A stretch of 45,755 bases of DNA. It comes from Anaerolineae bacterium. Lineage in GTDB: Bacteria; Chloroflexota; Anaerolineae; JAADDB01. The notes beneath the pieces were generated by a model. That model searched no databases. It was not told the origin of the DNA and was given only the letters and a program-made list of their open reading frames with translations. The first letter of the stretch is position 1; the number at the start of each line of letters is the position of its first letter. Shown here piece after piece: positions 4,944 to 20,640 of this stretch. The stretch lies in the NCBI GenBank assembly GCA_015490995.1, contig WFWT01000036.1:1-45755 (forward strand), read 5' to 3'. The translations under genes and the position numbers were made by a program.

Positions 4944-5139
4944 CGTTCCTCTTTCGTCACCGACCTTTGGTCGGTTTAATCCGCCGGCTTTCCCGGCCGG
5001 AGATGTGCCTTGTGCGTGAGGTAATATGGCTCAGGGGAAGGTTGTATGTCCAGTTCGGGAAGGCTGTGGGGGAAGGCGCTTCGACGCGCTCGCGGTGTTG
5101 GTGTGAGGCAGGGGATGGGGTGCTTGAGCTTTTCCCGAG

Positions 5140-5186
5140 TATAATTAGGGGACACATCCAGAACCGTGCCCCCTACACACCGGAGG
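5140..5186 (+). promoter_or_regulatory. Possible -10 box and ribosome binding site of the PHP-helicase gene
   Basis: A perfect TATAAT lies at 5140-5145 with no convincing -35 at normal spacing. CGGAGG at 5181-5186 sits 5 bases before the ATG at 5192. Together they fix the start at 5192 and argue against the in-frame upstream extension to 4967. Confidence 0.45.
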
Positions 5187-5191
5187 CTCAG

Positions 5192-8100
5192 ATGAAGATC
5201 ATTGCCGATCTGCACATTCACTCTTACTACTCGCGAGCAACCAGCAAGGATTTGACCATTCCGCACCTGGCGATATGGGCTCAACGGAAGGGCATTCATG
5301 TCGTAGCTACCGGGGACATTGCCCATCCGGGGTGGGTAAAAGAGGTTGAGGAGGTGCTGGAGCCTGCGGAGGAGGGACTGTACCGGTTGAAGCCCGAGGT
5401 GGCCCAAGCCGTAACTTCTCGGGTACCTGCGGCGTGTCAGGGGACGGTGCGGTTTATCCTCGGCGGGGAGATCAGCAACATTTATAAGAAGAAGGGACGG
5501 GTGCGCAAGATCCACAATATGGTGTACTTTCCCACCTTTGAGGCGGTGCGCCGGTTTCAGGCGGTTCTCGAACGTATCGGCAACATTCACGCTGATGGGC
5601 GTCCTATCCTCGGCTTAGACGCACGTGACCTACTGGAGATCGTGTTGGATGTGGACCCTGGGGGGTTCCTTATCCCGGCGCACATCTGGACCCCCTGGTT
5701 TTCCCTGCTGGGGTCCCGTTCTGGCTTCGACTCGGTGGAAGAATGTTTTGAGGACTTGACGCCCCACATTTTCGCGTTGGAGACCGGCCTGTCCTCCGAT
5801 CCGCCCATGAATTGGCGGGTTTCCGCGCTGGATCGGTATACGCTTGTGTCCGCGTCCGATGCACATTCGCCCCAGAAGCTCGGCCGGGAGGCCACGCTGT
5901 TTCACACCGAACTCTCGTATTTTGCGCTTCTGGAGGCAATGCGCACAGGGGATCCCCAAACCTTTGGCGGCACGGTGGAGTTCTTTCCCGAAGAGGGCAA
6001 GTATCACTTGGATGGACATCGCAAATGTGGCGTGGTGTGGGAGCCTCACACCACGCGCGCGCATCAGGGGATCTGCCCGGTGTGTGGTAAGCCGGTTACG
6101 GTGGGAGTTATGCACAGGGTGGAAGAGCTGGCCGATCGGCCTGAGGGTGCGCGGAAGCCAAACGCTCATCCCTTTTACAGTCTGATCCCCTTGCCTGAAA
6201 TTTTGAGCGAGCTCCTCAACGTGGGACCGAACAGCCGTCGAGTGCAGCAGGAGTACGAGCGGTTGCTGACCACACTGGGACCTGAATTGCGCATCTTAAT
6301 GGACGTGCCTCTCGACGCGATCGCTCAGGTGGGGGGAGAACGGTTGGCGGAAGGAATAGGCCGGATGAGACGGGGGGAAGTGGTCCGCCAACCTGGGTTC
6401 GACGGCCAATACGGCGTAATCCGGCTGTTTGCCACACCCCCTAACCTCTCAGAAGCTCCCACCCTCTTTGAGTGGTCTGAACAGCCCTCTACAGAAACCG
6501 CGTCGGAGACGCTGTCGGCCGGACAGGCGTCTCGCCCCTCAACCGCGGACACCGTTGACACGCATGACCCCTCTGGGACCGACACTTCCTGGCTGAACGC
6601 GCTGAATCCGGAACAGCGTGCGGCCGTGGAAACGGTGGACCGTCCCCTGGTGATCGTGGCGGGGCCGGGGACAGGAAAGACGTTGACCCTGACCACGCGG
6701 ATTGCATACTTGGTTGAGTCCCGCGGTGTGCCTCCGGAACACATCCTTGCCATTACCTTCACCAACAAAGCGGCCGGAGAGATGCGTGAGCGCCTGGTTC
6801 GCCTGTTGGGTGAGGCGCGAGCGCATCAGGTGACGGTGGCCACATTCCACGCGCTGGCCACGCACCTGTTACGTCGCTGGGGAGAGGTTATAGGCATTCC
6901 TCCGGACTTCGTCATCCTGGACGACGACGCGCGCCGCCAGTTGTTGAAAACCGTGCAGCCGGCATTGAGTGGGGCGCGATTGAACGCCGCGTTGGACGCT
7001 CTCAGTCGGTGGAAACATCGCGTCGATCCCGGCGTCGGGGAACCCCCGTTTCCCCCGGAATTGGCGCCTTGGGAACGTGTTATCCGTGCTTATGAGGCGG
7101 CCCGACAGGCCGCTCACGCTCTGGACTTCGATGACCTAGTGCGGGAAGCTGTGCGCTTGTTGGCCAGCGTGCCGGAAGTGCGGAAAGCAGTCCACCGTCA
7201 GTATCGGTGGATCGCGGTGGACGAATATCAAGATGTCAACGAGGTGCAGTACCGTTTGCTGCGGTGGTTAGCCGCGGGGGGAGCCAACGTGTGTGTTATC
7301 GGCGATCCGGACCAGGCTATTTACGGGTTCCGCGGGGCGGATCGGCAATATTTCCTGCGCTTTACGGAGGATTTCCCCACCGCGCGGGAGATACGGCTCA
7401 CACGGAATTACCGTTCCACCCAGGTGTTGCTGGACGCGGCATGGCACGTGATTCATCGGGGCGTGGATACTTACGGGACACCCCTGATCGCCCGATGGGC
7501 CACCGGGCGAAAAGTTCACATCCAGGAGGCGCCTACGGAGAAGGCTGAAGCCGAGTACGTGGTCCACACTATTGAACAGCTGGTAGGGGGGTTAAGTTAC
7601 TTTTCCATCGACTCCGGTCGAGTGGACGACACGCAGGTCCCACGTCGCTCCTTTGGTGATATTGCCGTCTTGTATCGATTACGTGCCCTGGCTCGACCAC
7701 TGGTGGAGGCATTTAAGCGGGCAGGCATTCCCTTTCAGACGGTCGGTGAAACCCCTCCTACCGCGCGTCCGGTGGTACGGGACGCGCTCGCACACTTGTG
7801 GCTCTGGGTGGCCCCACGTGCCCAATGGCCCTTGATGCAGGTGCTCAAGGCGTGGGGACTGGACAGTTCGGCGGTGCAGGAAGCGCTCTTGAACCGTGAG
7901 GGGGAGGCTCTGGAGTGGCGCGCGTTACCGGCCCAGGTACATTTATCTCCCGGGCAGGTCCGGCGGGTGGACGCGCTGGCTGCGCTGTGGGAACGCCTGA
8001 ACACGACCGATCTTTCGGTCGTGGAACGGTGTCGGTACGTGTGGGACGCCCTTACGGCACACCAGGAGATCACCCCCGCGGATGAGGAAGCGTGGCAGTA

Positions 8101-8560
8101 TGTCGTGCGCGTGGCCGAGGGGTTTGGTAATCGGGTGCTTGATTTTCTGGAGCAGGTCACCCTCCAGAGCGAGACAGATTTTTACAACCCTCGGGCAGAC
8201 CGAGTAGCCTTAATGACCCTGCACGCGGCCAAAGGGCTGGAGTTTCCGGTGGTGTTCATCGTGGGGTGTGAGGAGGGCATCATCCCCTATTTGAGAGAGG
8301 ACGACGCCGCGGACGTGGAGGAGGAACGACGGCTGTTCTACGTGGGGATGACCCGCGCGAAGGAAGTCCTCTTTCTTACCCATGCCCGTCGACGTCTCCT
8401 TTACGGCGAACGTCGTCAACAGCACCCGTCCCGTTTTTTGGACGATATTGAGGCCGCGTTGAAGGAGCTACACGTCTGGCAAAGCGCTCGGCGCCGACGT
8501 CCACGGCAGGACAGTGTCCAGGCGGAGCAGCTCTCGTTATGGGGCGAGGATGGGCCATGA
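5192..8560 (+). CDS. Endonuclease Q-like PHP domain fused to UvrD/Rep-family DNA helicase
   Basis: A 1122-residue fusion. Residues 1 to about 400 match the endonuclease Q family: PHP metal motif DLHIHSYYSRATSKD near the N terminus, then a zinc-finger region with C279 and C295-PVC. EndoQ cuts 5' of deaminated bases or abasic sites. From about 469 the protein is a superfamily 1A helicase: Q motif LNPEQRAA, Walker A GPGTGKT (about 490-496), motif Ia TFTNKAA, Walker B DEYQD (about 675), motif III GDPDQAIYGFRGAD, motif V TLHAAKGLEF and motif VI YVGMTRAK. The linker (about 425-465) is rich in Ser, Thr, Glu and Asp. The start is chosen by its CGGAGG site and the family-typical first residues. It is coupled by an ATGA overlap to pbpC. 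A role in repair of deaminated DNA is inferred. Confidence 0.92.
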   Translation: MKIIADLHIHSYYSRATSKDLTIPHLAIWAQRKGIHVVATGDIAHPGWVKEVEEVLEPAEEGLYRLKPEVAQAVTSRVPAACQGTVRFILGGEISNIYKKKGRVRKIHNMVYFPTFEAVRRFQAVLERIGNIHADGRPILGLDARDLLEIVLDVDPGGFLIPAHIWTPWFSLLGSRSGFDSVEECFEDLTPHIFALETGLSSDPPMNWRVSALDRYTLVSASDAHSPQKLGREATLFHTELSYFALLEAMRTGDPQTFGGTVEFFPEEGKYHLDGHRKCGVVWEPHTTRAHQGICPVCGKPVTVGVMHRVEELADRPEGARKPNAHPFYSLIPLPEILSELLNVGPNSRRVQQEYERLLTTLGPELRILMDVPLDAIAQVGGERLAEGIGRMRRGEVVRQPGFDGQYGVIRLFATPPNLSEAPTLFEWSEQPSTETASETLSAGQASRPSTADTVDTHDPSGTDTSWLNALNPEQRAAVETVDRPLVIVAGPGTGKTLTLTTRIAYLVESRGVPPEHILAITFTNKAAGEMRERLVRLLGEARAHQVTVATFHALATHLLRRWGEVIGIPPDFVILDDDARRQLLKTVQPALSGARLNAALDALSRWKHRVDPGVGEPPFPPELAPWERVIRAYEAARQAAHALDFDDLVREAVRLLASVPEVRKAVHRQYRWIAVDEYQDVNEVQYRLLRWLAAGGANVCVIGDPDQAIYGFRGADRQYFLRFTEDFPTAREIRLTRNYRSTQVLLDAAWHVIHRGVDTYGTPLIARWATGRKVHIQEAPTEKAEAEYVVHTIEQLVGGLSYFSIDSGRVDDTQVPRRSFGDIAVLYRLRALARPLVEAFKRAGIPFQTVGETPPTARPVVRDALAHLWLWVAPRAQWPLMQVLKAWGLDSSAVQEALLNREGEALEWRALPAQVHLSPGQVRRVDALAALWERLNTTDLSVVERCRYVWDALTAHQEITPADEEAWQYVVRVAEGFGNRVLDFLEQVTLQSETDFYNPRADRVALMTLHAAKGLEFPVVFIVGCEEGIIPYLREDDAADVEEERRLFYVGMTRAKEVLFLTHARRRLLYGERRQQHPSRFLDDIEAALKELHVWQSARRRRPRQDSVQAEQLSLWGEDGP

Positions 8561-12276: not shown

Positions 12277-13149
12277 CTAGGGGAAGCTTGTAAACGCCAG
12301 GATCATCTCGCGGGCCAAGAACGCGGCCAAGATCCCCGTCGTGCCGCTTGGGTCGTGGGGAGGACTGTATTCGACCAGGTCGGCAGAGACTACCCGCACC
12401 CGTCGCAACGCCCGGAAGATCCGCAAAAGGTCTTGTACCTGCCAGCCGCACGGTTCAGGATTGCCGGTGCCCGGGGCCAGGCTGGGGTCAAGGACATCGA
12501 TGTCCAGGGAGAGGTGCACCCGGGTGTGCGGGGGGAGGGTCTGTAACCGTTCGAGCAGGGCGTCAGGCGTAGGAGCCAGGATGTTGAGGCGGTGTGCGAG
12601 GGCGAACTCTTCGCGTAGCCCAGAGCGGGCGCCCGCGATGAGGAGGCGTTCGGGGCCAAGCCATTCCAGGGCACGACGGGCCCAGGCAGCGTGGGAGTAC
12701 GGGCTGCCCTGGTAGGTGGGCCGCAGGTCGGTGTGGGCGTCCAGCACGATGAGCCTGAAGTGGGGATCATCAATCTCTTCCGGGGTGAGGAAGGCTAAGG
12801 TGACGGTGTGTTCCCCGCCTAGGAAAAGGGTGAAGGGGGTACGGGCCTTCACTTCGGCCAGGAAGGCCCGTACCGTCTGCAGGTGATCGGGGAAAAGGGC
12901 CAGTGGCTCTTCGATAACGACGTCACCTCGATCTATCAGGTGGATGTCTTGCTCCAGGTCTCGTTCCTGGTAGGGGCTGTATGTTTCGATGCTTTCTGCG
13001 TAGTGCCGAATGGCCTGGGGAGCGAAGTGTGTGCCTCCTCGGAAGGAGGCCGTCGTCTCATGAGGGAAACCGACCACTTGGGCGTCACCTGTCTCGCCCG
13101 GACGAGCTCCTAGGAAGGGTTGCACAGGTATTAGGCGGACAGAGGTCAT
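12277..13149 (-). CDS. speB: Agmatinase-family ureohydrolase (agmatine or N1-aminopropylagmatine)
   Basis: A 290-residue arginase/agmatinase-family enzyme that releases urea from a guanidino compound using two manganese ions. All metal ligands are present: H114 in GGEHT, D137-A-H139-T-D141 and D216-I-D218. The gene starts 2 bases after the decarboxylase/aminopropyltransferase fusion ends, so they share one mRNA. In Thermus the homologous enzyme prefers N1-aminopropylagmatine and yields spermidine directly; here that reading is favoured because the preceding protein could make that compound from arginine. Classical agmatinase activity (agmatine to putrescine) remains possible. The hydrolase family is certain, the substrate is inferred. 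Confidence 0.92.
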   Translation of the reverse strand: MTSVRLIPVQPFLGARPGETGDAQVVGFPHETTASFRGGTHFAPQAIRHYAESIETYSPYQERDLEQDIHLIDRGDVVIEEPLALFPDHLQTVRAFLAEVKARTPFTLFLGGEHTVTLAFLTPEEIDDPHFRLIVLDAHTDLRPTYQGSPYSHAAWARRALEWLGPERLLIAGARSGLREEFALAHRLNILAPTPDALLERLQTLPPHTRVHLSLDIDVLDPSLAPGTGNPEPCGWQVQDLLRIFRALRRVRVVSADLVEYSPPHDPSGTTGILAAFLAREMILAFTSFP

Positions 13150-13151
13150 GG

Positions 13152-14483
13152 TTAGGGCGCCTCCTGAGCGATCAGTCGTTGAACGAAGGGGGGCAGGACA
13201 AAGGCAGCTTGGTGGATGGCGGGCGTGTAGTATTGGGTTTCTATGCCTAGGGCCCGGAAGCGTTCCTCCAGTTGAGCGGGAGACACCGCTGTGGGATCAA
13301 CTCCCCGTGCGCCCAACATAAAGGACCACAGGCCGCCCGGATAGGTGGGCACGTGTGTCAGGTAGAGGTGCAGATGGGAGAAGTGGGGCCGCATGGCCTG
13401 CCAGTTGCGGGTGATCACGTCCGGTTGTAACCAGGGCGATCCGCTCTGGGCGGAGACCACCCCCACGGAGGAGAGATGTCGGGTGACCAGCGCGTAGAAG
13501 TCTGAGGTGAAAAGGCGCATGGCCGGCCCTACCGGATCGGTAGTGTCCATAAGGATAACGTCGAACGGTTCGTGGGCCTGTTCCAGATAGGTGTACGCGT
13601 CCTCGTACACCAGCTGGGTGCGGGGCTCGTCGAACGCATTGCCACAGATGGAAGCCAGGTACTCGCGGGCAGCCCGTACGACATCTCGGTCGATTTCCAC
13701 CATCACCACTTGGTCAACCGGGTAATGTAACACCGTGCGGAGGGCGCCGCCATCCCCACCCCCGACAATCAGGACCCGCCGTGGGGCCGGGTGGATCAGC
13801 ATCGGCACGTGGACCAGCATTTCGTGATAAGCCCATTGATCTGCTTCGCTCGTTTGGACGGTGCCCTCCAGCCAGAGCATACGACCGAACTGGAAAGTGT
13901 CCACAATGTCGATGTGCTGGTAAGGAGATCGCATGGAGAAGATGGACTCCCGTACCCGCACGCTGAAGCGGACATCCGGGGTCCACGCTTCGGTTTCCCA
14001 TTGCTCAGGCAGTTCCTCCAGTTCGTCCCCCCAAAGCACAGCAGCGGCCACCGCGCATCCATGTTGTTCTACCGTGTGTTCCGCGGAGATCACGTAGTAT
14101 TCGTGCAAAGGAATGTCACGGGCGCTAAAGGCGGCCTCCACCCGCATTCGAACCTGTGCCTCGATTTCCTCCCGGGTGCCCACGCCATGGCTTTCCATAA
14201 TGACCCCACGGCCGTCCGGGCTTAGGCCCAACGCCACGGCCGCGGCGATCGTTTGCCCCGGTACGTTGCTGTACGCCTGGGCGTAGACCGTAGGGACCAG
14301 GCTGCCTACGGGGAACTCGCGCAACGGGACTAACCGGGCCCCTTGGGGCACGATGGAGGAAACTTTTATCAGGTTAAGGTCAGCGATGCCGGCGTCCATC
14401 AGCGCGTTGTCGAACGCGGTCAGGCTGTCAGGACCTTCGGCGTGGCCGGCGGTCAGGGATACGTATTTGGGCAGGGTGATCAT
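13152..14483 (-). CDS. Fusion of pyruvoyl-dependent arginine decarboxylase and spermidine synthase-type aminopropyltransferase
   Basis: A 443-residue fusion. Residues 1-152 match pyruvoyl-dependent arginine decarboxylases of archaea: N-terminal LPKYVSLTAGHAEG, LTAFDNALMDAGI, and the self-cleavage site V41-S42-S43-I44-V-P, where Ser43 would become the pyruvoyl group; Glu97 sits in the conserved IME motif, and AEHTVEQHGCAVAAA closes the domain. Residues about 165-443 are an aminopropyltransferase: SAM-type glycine loop GGGDGG (241-246), MVEID, and the catalytic D313-T-T-D316 motif. Self-processing would leave a 42-residue beta chain and an alpha chain attached to the transferase. Agmatine made by the first domain could feed the second. 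The start has AAGGAGG 5 bases upstream. No AdoMet decarboxylase is in the window. Confidence 0.92.
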   Translation of the reverse strand: MITLPKYVSLTAGHAEGPDSLTAFDNALMDAGIADLNLIKVSSIVPQGARLVPLREFPVGSLVPTVYAQAYSNVPGQTIAAAVALGLSPDGRGVIMESHGVGTREEIEAQVRMRVEAAFSARDIPLHEYYVISAEHTVEQHGCAVAAAVLWGDELEELPEQWETEAWTPDVRFSVRVRESIFSMRSPYQHIDIVDTFQFGRMLWLEGTVQTSEADQWAYHEMLVHVPMLIHPAPRRVLIVGGGDGGALRTVLHYPVDQVVMVEIDRDVVRAAREYLASICGNAFDEPRTQLVYEDAYTYLEQAHEPFDVILMDTTDPVGPAMRLFTSDFYALVTRHLSSVGVVSAQSGSPWLQPDVITRNWQAMRPHFSHLHLYLTHVPTYPGGLWSFMLGARGVDPTAVSPAQLEERFRALGIETQYYTPAIHQAAFVLPPFVQRLIAQEAP

Positions 14484-14676
14484 GTGCGCCTCCTTACATG
14501 TGCTGTTCAGTTATCAGGATGTTTGCGAAAGATGGCGCCGCGTGACAGAACGGCACAGGTCGCGTGTTGTGCACCGGTGGCAGGTGTACAGCGCGTACTT
14601 CCGATGGGTGATACTGCAAAACGGCCAGGACGTCAAATGTCACCGGCCAGGTAGCGATGGGATCCGGAAAGTAGGT

Positions 14677-14712
14677 CCCCTGCGGATGGCTGTAGAAGGC
14701 CATCCGCAGGGG
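14677..14712 (-). terminator. Strong hairpin after glmS
   Basis: A perfect 13-bp stem (14677-14689 with 14700-14712) around a 10-base loop begins 14 bases after the glmS stop. It lacks a clean U-tract on the minus strand, but its stability and position make it the likely end of the glmS transcript and insulate the polyamine genes downstream. Confidence 0.6.
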
Positions 14713-14725
14713 CGATAGAGGGCAG

Positions 14726-16576
14726 TTACTCCACCGTGACCGACTTGGCGAGGTTCCGGGGTTGGTCTACGTCGTTGCCCAGGCGAACGGCCACGTAATA
14801 GGCAAAGAGCTGACAGGGAATGACCGATAGCACAGGCTGCAGGAGCGGAGGCGCCTTAGGGATGTAAATAACGTCGTCCGCTTTCTGCGCGATGAGCTCA
14901 TCGCCGACGTTGGCAATAGCGATGACGCGGCCGTCTCGAGCTTTCACCTGTTCCACTTGGCTCACCATCTTATCGTACACGTGGTCCTGAGGTACCAGAG
15001 CTACAACCGGCATATCCTCGTCGATAAGCGCGATGGGACCGTGCTTCATTTCGCCGGCCGGGTAGCCTTCGGCGTGGATGTAGGAGATTTCCTTGAGTTT
15101 GAGCGCGCCCTCCAGCGCGATGGGGTAATGGATGCCTCGGCCCAGATAGAGGAAGTTGCGGGCCCGATAATATTTGGTGGCTAACTCACGCGTAATGGAG
15201 TCCACTGCGGCCAGCGTGTCCCCCACCAACTTGGGCAACAGGGCCAACGCACGAGCGTGGGTTAACGCGTCCTGACGGGTTAGGAGACCGCGTTGTTGGG
15301 CAATGTATAAAGCAAGGAGGTACTCGTCCACCACCGAGGCGGTGAACGCTTTGGTGGAGGCCACCCCGATCTCAGGCCCGGCCTGCATGTAAATCACCCC
15401 GTCGCTCACGCGAGCCGCCTGGCTGCCGACCACGTTGACAATGGCCCAGGTGCGCACCTGTTTACGCCGGGCTTCTTCCAGGGCGGCCAAGGTGTCCACG
15501 GTTTCCCCCGATTGACTGATGGCCAACACAACATCCGTCTCGGCCAGGATAGGGTCACGATATCGGAATTCAGAGCCGTAATCCACCTCCACAGGAACGC
15601 GCGCAATGCGCTCAAGGAGATATTTGCCCACAAGCGCGGCATAGTAGGACGTGCCACAGGCTACGGCGTGAATGCGCGTCAGGGCGCGGGCTTCCGCGGG
15701 GGAAAGGTGTAAACCTTCCAGCGTGACTTCGCCGGTGGTGAAGTTGATGCGCCCGCGCAGGGTGTCGGTGATGGCCTGGGGTTGTTCGAAGATCTCTTTT
15801 TGCATGAAGTGTTTGTACTCCCCTTTCGCCGCGGCGAGGGGATCCCAGGGAATCGTGTGTACCGTTGGCTGGAAGGGCACACCGGTGTCCAAGTGAAAAC
15901 ACCGGACGCGCTCGGGTTCCACCACCGCGGCTTGACGGTTTTCCAGAAAGATCATGCGTCGGGTATAAGGGAGGATGGCCGGGATGTCAGACGCGACAAA
16001 GTTCTCCCCCTCACCTAAGCCGATGACGACGCCGCCGGCGTTCCCCAGGCGGGCCGCGATCAGGGTGTCCGGCATGTGACGGGACATCACCACCACCGCG
16101 CTGGCCCCTTCCAGTCGTTGCAGCGCGTGGCGGACCGCGGTGACCAGGTCATTCCCCGCGTGAAGGTAACGGTCAATGAGGTGAGCGATCACTTCGGTGT
16201 CCGTGTCTGACGCGAACCGGATGCCCTCGGCGGCCAGTTCCTCGCGTAACTCAAGGAAGTTCTCCACAATGCCGTTGTGTACGATGACCACATCCCGTTC
16301 CGGGTCGGTGTGGGGATGGGCGTTATACCGGGTAGGTTTACCGTGGGTGGCCCACCGGGTGTGCCCGATACCCGGGGAACCGGTCAAGGGTTCGGCCGCT
16401 ATAAGGCCATCCAGGTTGCTCAGTTTGCCCACTTCGCGCCGAATCTCCACCTGGCCGTTGCGGGTGAGCACGGCCAGGCCTGCCGAGTCATATCCCCGGT
16501 ATTCCAGCCGGTGCAGCCCTTCCAGAATGATGGGGACCGCGTCCCGGGGACCCACATAGCCTACAATACCGCACAT
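14726..16576 (-). CDS. glmS: Glutamine-fructose-6-phosphate aminotransferase GlmS
   Basis: A 616-residue full-length GlmS that makes glucosamine-6-phosphate from fructose-6-phosphate and glutamine, the first step toward UDP-GlcNAc. The N-terminal glutaminase begins MCGIVGYVG with Cys2 as nucleophile and contains GHTRWATHG. Two SIS sugar-isomerase domains follow (SQSGETVDTLAAL in the first), and the C terminus ends in the signature DQPRNLAKSVTVE. AAGGAGG lies 6 bases before the ATG. Its mRNA has a leader of more than 500 bases that contains a glmS self-cleaving ribozyme (16885-17112), so expression should fall when glucosamine-6-phosphate accumulates. Confidence 0.97.
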   Translation of the reverse strand: MCGIVGYVGPRDAVPIILEGLHRLEYRGYDSAGLAVLTRNGQVEIRREVGKLSNLDGLIAAEPLTGSPGIGHTRWATHGKPTRYNAHPHTDPERDVVIVHNGIVENFLELREELAAEGIRFASDTDTEVIAHLIDRYLHAGNDLVTAVRHALQRLEGASAVVVMSRHMPDTLIAARLGNAGGVVIGLGEGENFVASDIPAILPYTRRMIFLENRQAAVVEPERVRCFHLDTGVPFQPTVHTIPWDPLAAAKGEYKHFMQKEIFEQPQAITDTLRGRINFTTGEVTLEGLHLSPAEARALTRIHAVACGTSYYAALVGKYLLERIARVPVEVDYGSEFRYRDPILAETDVVLAISQSGETVDTLAALEEARRKQVRTWAIVNVVGSQAARVSDGVIYMQAGPEIGVASTKAFTASVVDEYLLALYIAQQRGLLTRQDALTHARALALLPKLVGDTLAAVDSITRELATKYYRARNFLYLGRGIHYPIALEGALKLKEISYIHAEGYPAGEMKHGPIALIDEDMPVVALVPQDHVYDKMVSQVEQVKARDGRVIAIANVGDELIAQKADDVIYIPKAPPLLQPVLSVIPCQLFAYYVAVRLGNDVDQPRNLAKSVTVE

Positions 16577-16884
16577 GGATTGCCTCCTTGACCTCCAGGG
16601 TTTGGGTGGTACCGCGCGTGGCCCTCCGCAGGGGGCGCGGGAAGAGATGAGCTAACCGGATTTTGAACGGGAGTGTCGTCGCACCGGACATCCCAGTGTT
16701 GCGCGCGCAACACGATGCCGCGTGTGCTTCCTCCACAGCAACCGACCGGGACGACGACGGGACAGACTGTTATACCCCACGTGACATAGCTTCCCTGTTT
16801 CGAGACGCGGCACAGGGAAGGTGTGCTTGTGCACGTGAGGTATCCTCGGATATTCACAGCAGCCGGAAAGGGCTGCTGGCCACT
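16577..16884 (-). other. Structured glmS leader between ribozyme and start codon
   Basis: About 308 bases with no credible gene. On the minus strand, after the ribozyme, come an 8-bp hairpin (CAGCAGCC with GGCTGCTG, 16857-16878), a 9-bp hairpin (CTTCCCTGT with ACAGGGAAG, 16790-16820) and an 18-base perfect palindrome (16696-16713). Near the coding region a further pairing of CCGCGC with GCGCGG is possible (about 16612-16640). None has a U-tract, so they are not ordinary terminators. They may protect or present the 5'-hydroxyl RNA left by ribozyme cleavage. Confidence 0.5.
16696..16713. repeat. 18-bp perfect palindrome GTGTTGCGCGCGCAACAC
   Basis: The sequence equals its own reverse complement over 18 bases, within the glmS leader. 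It could be a protein operator on DNA or fold into a 7-bp hairpin in the mRNA. No known regulator site was recognised. Confidence 0.6.
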
Positions 16885-17112
16885 GTGCCCTGTTTTGTCC
16901 CACGGTCGCCCGTGGGCTTTGTCAGGGCACTTGCACGTTGGGGGACATCAGGGTGGTGGCACACCCTGGGAGGCATCCGCCGATCTCTCGATTTTCCCCG
17001 GACGGGCGTCCGGGTTAGCCTCGCCTTGCGGCGAGGAACCTCCACCCTCGTCAACTCCGGGAAATGGGACGATAGCCGATAGGTCGCCCTCTTCTCCCGG
17101 AGCCCTGGCGCT
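16885..17112 (-). ncRNA. glmS ribozyme (glucosamine-6-phosphate-activated self-cleaving RNA)
   Basis: Reading the minus strand, the 5' end is A17112 followed by GCGCC, placing the cleavage site between 17112 and 17111. P2 is CTCCGGGA pairing with TCCCGGAG, followed directly by the conserved GTTGACGAGG (17046-17055). The conserved ATCGAGAGATCGGCGGATG follows at about 16974-16992, then P3.1 (CAGGGTG/CACCCTG), P4 (GTGCCCTG at 16923-16930 with CAGGGCAC at 16885-16892) and P4.1 (CCCACGG-GCGA-CCGTGGG), all in the order and spacing of known glmS ribozymes. An insertion of about 45 bases with two extra hairpins separates GGTT from ATCGAG. It lies 308 bases ahead of glmS, its expected target. Confidence 0.95.
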
Positions 17113-17221
17113 TGTGTCCCCCCCTTGCGGTGTGGTTATCGCTCCCACCTCCTTCCGCAGGGTATGATTTAAAGAAGCCCGGCGGCCCATCTCGTTGGAG
17201 CCCTTCAACGGTCCACAGGGT

Positions 17222-18406: not shown

Positions 18407-19693
18407 GTGACCACGCAGGGAGAGGCGCTCTCGAAAGAGGTCATTTTCGACCTGTTCAGCCGCTATGTGTCCCCTCCGAAAGTCCGTTTCTTCCAGCAGG
18501 TGGGGATTGACTTTGTCATAGGTAGGCGGGAGGGAGCGTTTTTGTGGGATGTGGACGGCAGGCGGCAGTTGATAGACTGTCACTGTAACGGTGGGGTGTT
18601 CAACCTGGGGCACAGGCATCCGGAACTTGTGCGCACATTGCAGGAGAGCCTGAGCGCGCTGGACATCGGCAACCACCATTTGGTCAGCGAGTGGCGCGCG
18701 CGTCTGGGAGCACGTTTGGCCGAGTTGACACCGGGCGACTTAACTTACACCGTGTTTGGTGTGAGCGGTGGCGAGGCCATTGACCTGGCGATCAAAGTGG
18801 CCCGGGGATATACCGGAAGGCCGCGCATTATCTCCGCCCGTGGGGGGTACCACGGGCATACCGGGCTGGCGTTAGCCGCTGGTGATGAGAAGTATCGTCG
18901 GCCCTTTGGGCCAATGCCACCCGGTTTTGTGCAGGTGCCCTTTAATGATCTGGAGGCTCTGGATGCCGTGATGGACGAAACGACCGCGGCGGTGCTCTTG
19001 GAAACGGTGCCGGCCACCTCCGGGATAGTAGTGCCGGATCCTGAGTATTTGCCCGGGGTGCGGGAGTTATGTGATCGTTATGGCGCATTGCTCATCATCG
19101 ATGAAGTACAGGCAGGTCTAGGACGTACCGGCCGTCTCTGGGGCGTGGAGCACTACCAGGTTTTGCCGGACATTCTGGTTATCGGCAAGGGCCTCTCCGG
19201 AGGGTTGTATCCCATAACCGCGACGGTTCTTCGTCCTCCGTTAATACGGGTGTTTGAGCCGGATCCGTTTATCCACGTGTCCACTTTTGGGGGCGCGGAG
19301 CTGGGAGTGCCGGTTGCCTTAAAGGTGCTGGAGATTACCGCAACGCCCGATTTTCTGGCCCACGTACGGGCGATGGCGGCCTATTTCCGACAAGCCTTTG
19401 CTTCTCTGGCCGCGCGCCACACCGGTCTGTTAGTGCGGCTTCGACAGCTGGGCCTAATGATGGGGATTGAGCTCCCACACCCGCAAGCAGGCCCCTTGTT
19501 CTCGCGTATGGCGTATGAAGCCGGTTTGCTCTGTGTGTACGCGTACAATGACCCCCGCGTGGTTCAGTTCCTGCCCCCGTTAACCGTTGACCGTGTCCTG
19601 GCCGAGGAGATAGTGCAACGGGTGGACCAGGCTCTGACCGTCACGGCCCAGGTTCTAGCCCAGGGGAAGGAGGCTGGCGCATGGAGCGACTAG
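18407..19693 (+). CDS. Class III PLP-dependent aminotransferase
   Basis: A 428-residue class III (ornithine/4-aminobutyrate type) aminotransferase. The PLP lysine is K261 in VIGKGLSGG, and the cofactor-contacting aspartate is D232 in IIDEVQAGLGRTG. The GHRHPEL and YHGHTG motifs are typical of the family. Substrate is not evident: it could act on diamines, omega-amino acids or amino sugars. The GTG start is set by AGGGGAGG (18393-18400) 6 bases upstream. It overlaps the following kinase-fold gene by 13 bases, implying the two work together. It is not a plain argD or gabT by context, and GSA aminotransferase is separately encoded in the heme operon. Confidence 0.88.
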   Translation: MTTQGEALSKEVIFDLFSRYVSPPKVRFFQQVGIDFVIGRREGAFLWDVDGRRQLIDCHCNGGVFNLGHRHPELVRTLQESLSALDIGNHHLVSEWRARLGARLAELTPGDLTYTVFGVSGGEAIDLAIKVARGYTGRPRIISARGGYHGHTGLALAAGDEKYRRPFGPMPPGFVQVPFNDLEALDAVMDETTAAVLLETVPATSGIVVPDPEYLPGVRELCDRYGALLIIDEVQAGLGRTGRLWGVEHYQVLPDILVIGKGLSGGLYPITATVLRPPLIRVFEPDPFIHVSTFGGAELGVPVALKVLEITATPDFLAHVRAMAAYFRQAFASLAARHTGLLVRLRQLGLMMGIELPHPQAGPLFSRMAYEAGLLCVYAYNDPRVVQFLPPLTVDRVLAEEIVQRVDQALTVTAQVLAQGKEAGAWSD

Positions 19694-20640
19694 CCGCCTG
19701 GCTAGAGGCGTGGGAGGCAGCGCTGGACCCGCGGTATCCCGAGCGGGCCCGGCCCCCGGCCAAGGTGCTAGGATACGGCGAAATTAGCACCGTGATGGTG
19801 ATCGATCACCCGGACCTGGTCCACTTCGCCGTTAAGCGAATGCCCATGTTCCGCAGCGAAGCCGAGGTGCGCGCGTACGCAGCACTGCACGAGACATACC
19901 TCACCCACCTGGCTCGAGCAGGCATCCAGGTGCCGGAGACGCATCTGGTGCCGGTACCACGTGGCGAGCGGGGATGGGCTGTGTACATCCTGCAACGACG
20001 AGTGCCAACGCAGTCCTTAGCCCACCGGTTAATCCATCACCTCTCCTTGGAAGAGGGCCTGCGCCTGGCCCGGGCTGTGTTGGACGCTACTCGGCGTGTT
20101 TTCGCCTATAACGCGCAAAATCCGGAGGGCGTGGCTGTCGGTTTCGACGCGCAAATAGCTAACTGGGCTGTGGGCAACGTGTCGGCAAACACCGGAGGGC
20201 TACCATCGTCGCCGGCATTGCTGTACCTTGACACCAGTACCCCCTTGTTGCGGCGTCAGGGCCGGGAACAGCTGAATCCTGAATTATTCCTGCGCAGTGC
20301 ACCGTCGTTTTTGGTGTGGATTATGCGTCTGTTGTTCCTGGAGGAGGTGATGAACCGGTATTATGACTTGCGCCAGGTGGTACTGGACGTGATAGCCAAT
20401 CTTTACAAGGAAAAGCGGGGGGAGTGGGTGCCGGCCCTGGTGGACGCGGTGAACCGGTGGCGAGAAGCATGGCCTGAATTTAAGGGAGCGGCTTTTACCG
20501 TCCAGGAGGTGCGCAGGTATTATCGGCAGGACGCGTTTATCTGGCGGTTTTACCTGGCGGCGCGTAAACTGGACCGCTGGTTACATCATCTCGTGGGCAG
20601 GGAGTATCCCTACATGCTACCGGCGAAGATTGAGCGGTGA
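19681..20640 (+). CDS. Uncharacterised protein with kinase-like fold features
   Basis: A 319-residue protein I do not recognise as a named family. Several features recall protein-kinase/aminoglycoside-phosphotransferase folds: a glycine-rich GYGEIST at 31-37, a lysine in FAVKRMP (K52), a catalytic-loop-like D156-A-Q-I-A-N161, and a metal-binding-like D184 in LYLDTSTP. The C-terminal third is helical and basic with many aromatic residues. No transmembrane segment is seen. It overlaps the aminotransferase gene by 13 bases, with GGAGG about 8-10 bases before the ATG, and is followed after 13 bases by hisI. A small-molecule kinase acting on the aminotransferase substrate or product is possible but unproven. 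Confidence 0.7.

Follow-up and report, generated by a model that had tools for sequence, protein, structure and literature searches.

A Pyruvoyl Arginine Decarboxylase Joined to an Aminopropyltransferase in the Anaerolineae, and Its Predicted Part in Spermidine Synthesis

A single open reading frame of 443 amino acids in an Anaerolineae bacterium joins a pyruvoyl arginine decarboxylase (PvlArgDC) to an aminopropyltransferase (APT). It lies on the minus strand, running from ATG to TAA at positions 14483..13152 of the window, by which we mean the whole 45,755 nucleotide stretch of DNA analysed here, and is followed by a gene for a SpeB-like ureohydrolase. We consider it probable that the fusion is bifunctional and that, with its neighbour, it makes spermidine from arginine by way of agmatine and N1-aminopropylagmatine, without putrescine. 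The pathway, each of its enzymes, and fusions of polyamine enzymes as such are already known, and it is the domain arrangement that is new. We found no description of a PvlArgDC-APT fusion in full-text literature searches, the coverage of which is thin for subscription journals, and the remark in a preliminary description of this DNA that the fusion appeared uncharacterised is thus borne out in the literature searched.

The fusion gene (13152..14483, minus strand) comprises a PvlArgDC domain (residues 5-151), a linker of about 10 residues (about 152-161) and an aminopropyltransferase (about 160-440), as delimited by the reading frame, Pfam and NCBIfam matches, and alignments to 1n2m and 1iy9; loci L052, L053 and L054 have the same architecture. 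An AAGGAGG ribosome-binding site precedes the start codon. The PvlArgDC domain (14031..14471, minus strand), detected both by Pfam and by a genome search with PF01862, matches that family over residues 5-151 (8e-41, 140 bits against a cut-off of 22.7), and the APT domain (13173..14003, minus strand) matches PF17284 at residues 161-213 (1.2e-12) and PF01564 at residues 218-391 (6.4e-55). The NCBIfam equivalog models TIGR00286 (155 bits, cut-off 107) and TIGR00417 for speE (279 bits, cut-off 249.55) match the fusion as well, as does NF002010 (335, cut-off 260). These matches uphold the domain identities proposed in the preliminary description, but its span of 165-443 for the APT begins too late, as the domain starts near residue 160. 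The AdoMetDC family PF02675 is absent from the N-terminus by Pfam, where the domain is PF01862, and the protein is not an AdoMetDC-APT fusion. The junction itself (residues 152-162, GDELEELPEQW; 13998..14030, minus strand) is kept in all four of the fusions that we identified, as seen in their alignment and in substitution counts. An AlphaFold prediction made with the four fusions has a mean pLDDT of 45, too poor for judging how the domains pack.

The PvlArgDC half aligns end to end with the M. jannaschii PvlArgDC (1n2m), bringing S42-S43, N37 and E97 of the fusion opposite S52-S53, N47 and E109, which we take to be the cleavage pair (Ser52-Ser53) and two catalytic residues (N47 and E109), respectively; residue 53 is alanine in the crystallised 1n2m chain. 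The alignment places the Ser-Ser pair where self-cleavage had been proposed from the sequence, and S43, encoded at 14355..14357 (minus strand), is the predicted self-cleavage serine, which would become the pyruvoyl group on cutting between S42 and S43. S42, S43, N37 and E97 are invariant across the four fusions. Alignment of the APT half to 1iy9, 3o4f and 1inl locates the GGGDGG stretch for dcAdoMet binding (residues 241-246), the acidic E263 and the catalytic DTTD motif (313-316), and D313 and D316 are kept in all four fusions, although that of the assembly J4 has DIPD. The best solved relative of the APT domain is 1iy9 (E = 8.5e-75), presumably B. subtilis SpeE.

The neighbouring gene (12277..13149, minus strand) encodes a SpeB-like protein of 290 amino acids, predicted to be either an N1-aminopropylagmatine ureohydrolase or an agmatinase. 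It matches PF00491 (3.7e-58, 198 bits), has the metal-binding motifs GGEHT, DAHTD and SLDID, and passes the NCBIfam agmatinase model TIGR01230 only narrowly (176.6 bits, barely above the cut-off of 174.3). As first described, only 2 bases (13151-13150) separate the stop codon of the fusion from the ureohydrolase start. The AGGAGG ribosome-binding site of the ureohydrolase sits within the last codons of the fusion, suggesting that translation of the two is probably coupled.

The remainder of the genome was examined by profile searches of a draft in 150 contigs, and the absences found are strong, not absolute, because the draft is 99% complete. The fusion is the only PvlArgDC (PF01862), and the sole PF02784 match is LysA, a diaminopimelate decarboxylase; besides LysA we found no PLP-dependent ornithine, arginine or carboxyspermidine decarboxylase of the PF02784 fold, and no OKR_DC or agmatine deiminase. 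With no ornithine decarboxylase, other arginine decarboxylase or agmatine deiminase found, spermidine should come from agmatine, the starting point assumed in the preliminary description and the only entry to spermidine visible in these searches. They likewise show no path by which ornithine could be converted to putrescine. A speD gene elsewhere in the genome, the presence of which had been left to be checked, is indeed there: the only PF02675 match lies on contig C95, next to a second APT. The designation of the fusion and its neighbour as a two-gene module is accordingly overstated, since the decarboxylated AdoMet donor needs SpeD, encoded on another contig. The second APT on C95 (L045, 1436-2858, with speD) is divergent, carries GGGDG together with Asp in the second acidic position, and might be a thermospermine synthase. 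A true arginase is encoded on contig C49, and contig C44 encodes a branched-polyamine synthase, BpsA, that would use spermidine. On contig C29 an agmatinase-like gene (L047, 7182-7880) is cut by the contig end; its neighbour resembles urocanase (HutU) by eye, and the contig end also matches the agmatinase-like family on the opposite strand, which suggests a fold-back in the assembly. In two further genomes that carry the fusion (G741 and G742) there is no other strong APT match, and the fused domain is likely to be their spermidine-forming transferase.

Unfused relatives of these genes occur together in other Chloroflexota. A survey of PvlArgDC covering 396 genomes from the class and 400 from the phylum, two samples that overlap, found it in 38 and 18 genomes, respectively. 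In 14 Chloroflexota genomes from six families, separate pdaD, speD and speE genes are adjacent, tightly packed or overlapping (loci such as L041, L075, L076, L078 and L099-L108), and speB is next in 13 of them, being split over two frames in G600; none was found in G586. In G088 bpsA lies ahead of the group. The functional linkage suggested for the fused enzymes is strengthened by this arrangement, which resembles the fused locus in enzyme families and in order, the fused form being pdaD-speE-speB. It differs in that its three or four genes are separate and speD intervenes between pdaD and speE, whereas the fused lineage has speD elsewhere: next to speE2 in the genome described here (G000) and in G110, next to bpsA in G742. 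The fused locus resembles the operon minus speD, with pdaD joined in frame to speE. A candidate triple pdaD-speD-speE fusion in G565, counted as an open frame of 618 amino acids, was rejected, its DNA reading as three separate overlapping reading frames. We also note that pdaD directly follows bpsA in several genomes (L041, 2307-3921, in G088; L042, L043 and L044), linking agmatine production to branched polyamines, and that in the f9 genomes pdaD adjoins bpsA only. Another PvlArgDC subfamily of the class (L002-L024) has, at 15 of its 23 loci, a ureohydrolase gene alongside and neither speE nor speD within about 1.5 kb, and the two enzymes are likely to form a putrescine-making pair.

We propose that the fused chain folds and would then undergo self-cleavage at S42-S43. 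The shorter product would be a beta chain of 42 residues; the longer, an alpha chain of 401 residues, would begin with the pyruvoyl group and have the aminopropyltransferase as its C-terminal portion. The N-terminal domain would decarboxylate arginine to agmatine, the C-terminal part would transfer an aminopropyl group to agmatine from decarboxylated AdoMet (the product of the SpeD encoded elsewhere) to give N1-aminopropylagmatine, and the SpeB-like enzyme, its synthesis coupled to that of the fusion, would strip off urea to leave spermidine. Several lines of evidence favour this order of steps: the fusion joins two activities that are consecutive only in the N1-aminopropylagmatine route; in published tests 17 of 18 spermidine synthases from bacteria used agmatine, typically from species having arginine decarboxylase only (PMC11107197); T. 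kodakarensis and Thermus thermophilus make spermidine through N1-aminopropylagmatine without putrescine (PMC12175538, PMC11107197); and the ureohydrolases of the fused and operon loci cluster together in trees, separately from those found next to pdaD where speE is lacking, with moderate support (81/86). We nonetheless infer rather than prove which of the last two steps comes first, because no sequence motif is known that identifies agmatine-using aminopropyltransferases or separates them from putrescine users (PMC11107197). Counting against the proposal are the narrow margin of the SpeB-like protein over the agmatinase cut-off and the truncated agmatinase-like gene on C29, which could make putrescine.

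Comparison with known systems shows both precedents and differences. The arginine decarboxylase of T. kodakarensis is pyruvoyl-type and that of Thermus is a PLP enzyme; for the enzyme set we would regard T. kodakarensis as being as close a parallel as Thermus. Both have, as predicted here, an arginine decarboxylase, an agmatine aminopropyltransferase and a ureohydrolase, but as separate proteins whose activities have been demonstrated, whereas those described here are read from sequence. Human spermine synthase derives from an AdoMetDC-APT fusion, and such fusions, in Ca. Pelagibacter and others, likewise place a pyruvoyl decarboxylase N-terminal to an aminopropyltransferase. In the Ca. Pelagibacter proteins each half is functional (PMC11107197), but their decarboxylase supplies the donor, decarboxylated AdoMet, whereas here it would supply the acceptor, agmatine, and AdoMetDC and PvlArgDC are two unrelated pyruvoyl decarboxylase folds (PMC9992855). 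Because those fusions join the transferase to its donor source, fusion alone is no proof of the acceptor. B. subtilis SpeE, presumably the closest solved relative of the C-terminal domain, is a stand-alone enzyme with no PvlArgDC; it is reported to aminopropylate agmatine, and in a strain of E. coli rich in agmatine its yield of N1-aminopropylagmatine is similar to that of the T. kodakarensis enzyme (PMC11107197). The question of whether putrescine or N1-aminopropylagmatine is on the main bacterial route to spermidine has recently been reopened (PMC11107197), and a natural fusion that links agmatine synthesis with aminopropyl transfer, leaving urea removal outside, is genomic evidence for the N1-aminopropylagmatine order. 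It also brings a further type of decarboxylase into the set of known polyamine enzyme fusions and indicates a probable source operon, and with one gene and its neighbour the order of the route becomes testable in E. coli.

An alternative with a fair claim to attention, if short of probable, is that both routes run in parallel, with a promiscuous transferase and ureohydrolase, flux being set by how much agmatine and putrescine are present and tilted by the fusion towards aminopropylagmatine. The same 17 of 18 bacterial enzymes that aminopropylate agmatine also make spermidine from putrescine (PMC11107197), as this alternative would require; it is, however, compatible with the agmatine route that we prefer and differs from it only in degree, so the two overlap and the confidences that we attach to them do not add up to one. 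Because most tested bacterial spermidine synthases accept both substrates, putrescine activity of the transferase alone would not contradict the agmatine route (PMC11107197).

A stricter form of the agmatine route is that the fusion builds a fixed assembly which channels agmatine, with no free agmatine or putrescine and a dedicated N1-aminopropylagmatine ureohydrolase, and this we find doubtful. PvlArgDC is a trimer and these aminopropyltransferases are dimers or tetramers, and the fusion should therefore form a larger assembly; direct handing of agmatine from one fused active site to the other is purely speculative. Were channelling to be true, this would be, in the literature searched, the first natural fusion of the acceptor-making and acceptor-using enzymes of the route.

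The conventional putrescine route, in which the SpeB homologue would turn agmatine from the first domain into putrescine, the acceptor from which the transferase domain would then form spermidine, so that fusion would serve only to equalise the amounts of the first and last enzymes, seems to us unlikely. The neighbour does pass the agmatinase model and the APT the spermidine synthase model, putrescine is an accepted or preferred substrate for many spermidine synthases, and agmatinase-type ureohydrolases are common; but this route would fuse non-consecutive steps and leave the middle enzyme outside, in 13 operons the ureohydrolase gene follows that of the transferase, and the ureohydrolases beside pdaD without speE belong to a different group. 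Moreover, species with arginine decarboxylase but without ornithine decarboxylase mostly have agmatine-accepting transferases (PMC11107197).

The domain order seen here, for which the preliminary description proposed a database search, recurs in other assemblies. A scan of named genomes recovered the fusion intact in three, the Anaerolineales MAGs S140_45 and S139_71, whose fusions are near-identical to one another and 79% identical to that in the window, and the Caldilineae MAG J4 (72% identical), which we treat as one genome with G110; the scan used two narrow peptide patterns and may miss more diverged fusions. A scan of viral contigs with two narrow peptide patterns found no relatives. The ureohydrolase gene directly follows the fusion in all fusion assemblies. 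Non-synonymous differences per site are far fewer than synonymous ones in both domains and in the linker, and the base composition of the cassette is like that of the rest of the contig and of other contigs of the genome. The 150-contig draft and the lack of PvlArgDC in relatives of the same order might suggest an artefact of assembly or frameshift, or a gene in decay, but this is hardly conceivable given the same architecture and linker at 72-79% identity in three assemblies of two other lineages, strong suppression of protein-level relative to silent changes, and a base composition that fits its surroundings.

In trees the fused proteins form one clade for the pdaD part (98/98), the speE part (100/100) and the neighbouring speB (100/100), and the two-gene cassette therefore has a single origin. 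The fusion would have arisen once, speD having first left the cluster, and its source would be a pdaD-speD-speE-speB operon or something similar; derivation from exactly that operon is our inference, as the trees leave the sister group of the fused form ambiguous. Five other genomes of the same order are without PvlArgDC, which implies either acquisition of the cassette in this lineage or its loss from the relatives.

The gene upstream of the fusion is glmS (14726-16576), which is preceded by a glmS ribozyme (RF00234, 54 bits; 16875-17123, minus strand), a known regulatory pair; this is the only RNA family match in the window, and none lies near the fusion. Between glmS and the fusion, at about 14675-14715, is a strong inverted repeat, CCCCTGCGGATGG...CCATCCGCAGGGG, with no T run, which probably separates the two transcription units. 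Elsewhere in the window a plus-strand gene (4967-8560) encodes a 1197-residue protein in which a UvrD/Rep helicase occupies residues 546-1140; its N-terminal half resembles PHP-type phosphoesterases by eye (DLHIHSYYS) and has no Pfam match at the threshold used. A DUF6206 protein (19681-20640, plus strand) is encoded beside a class-III aminotransferase (18407-19693).
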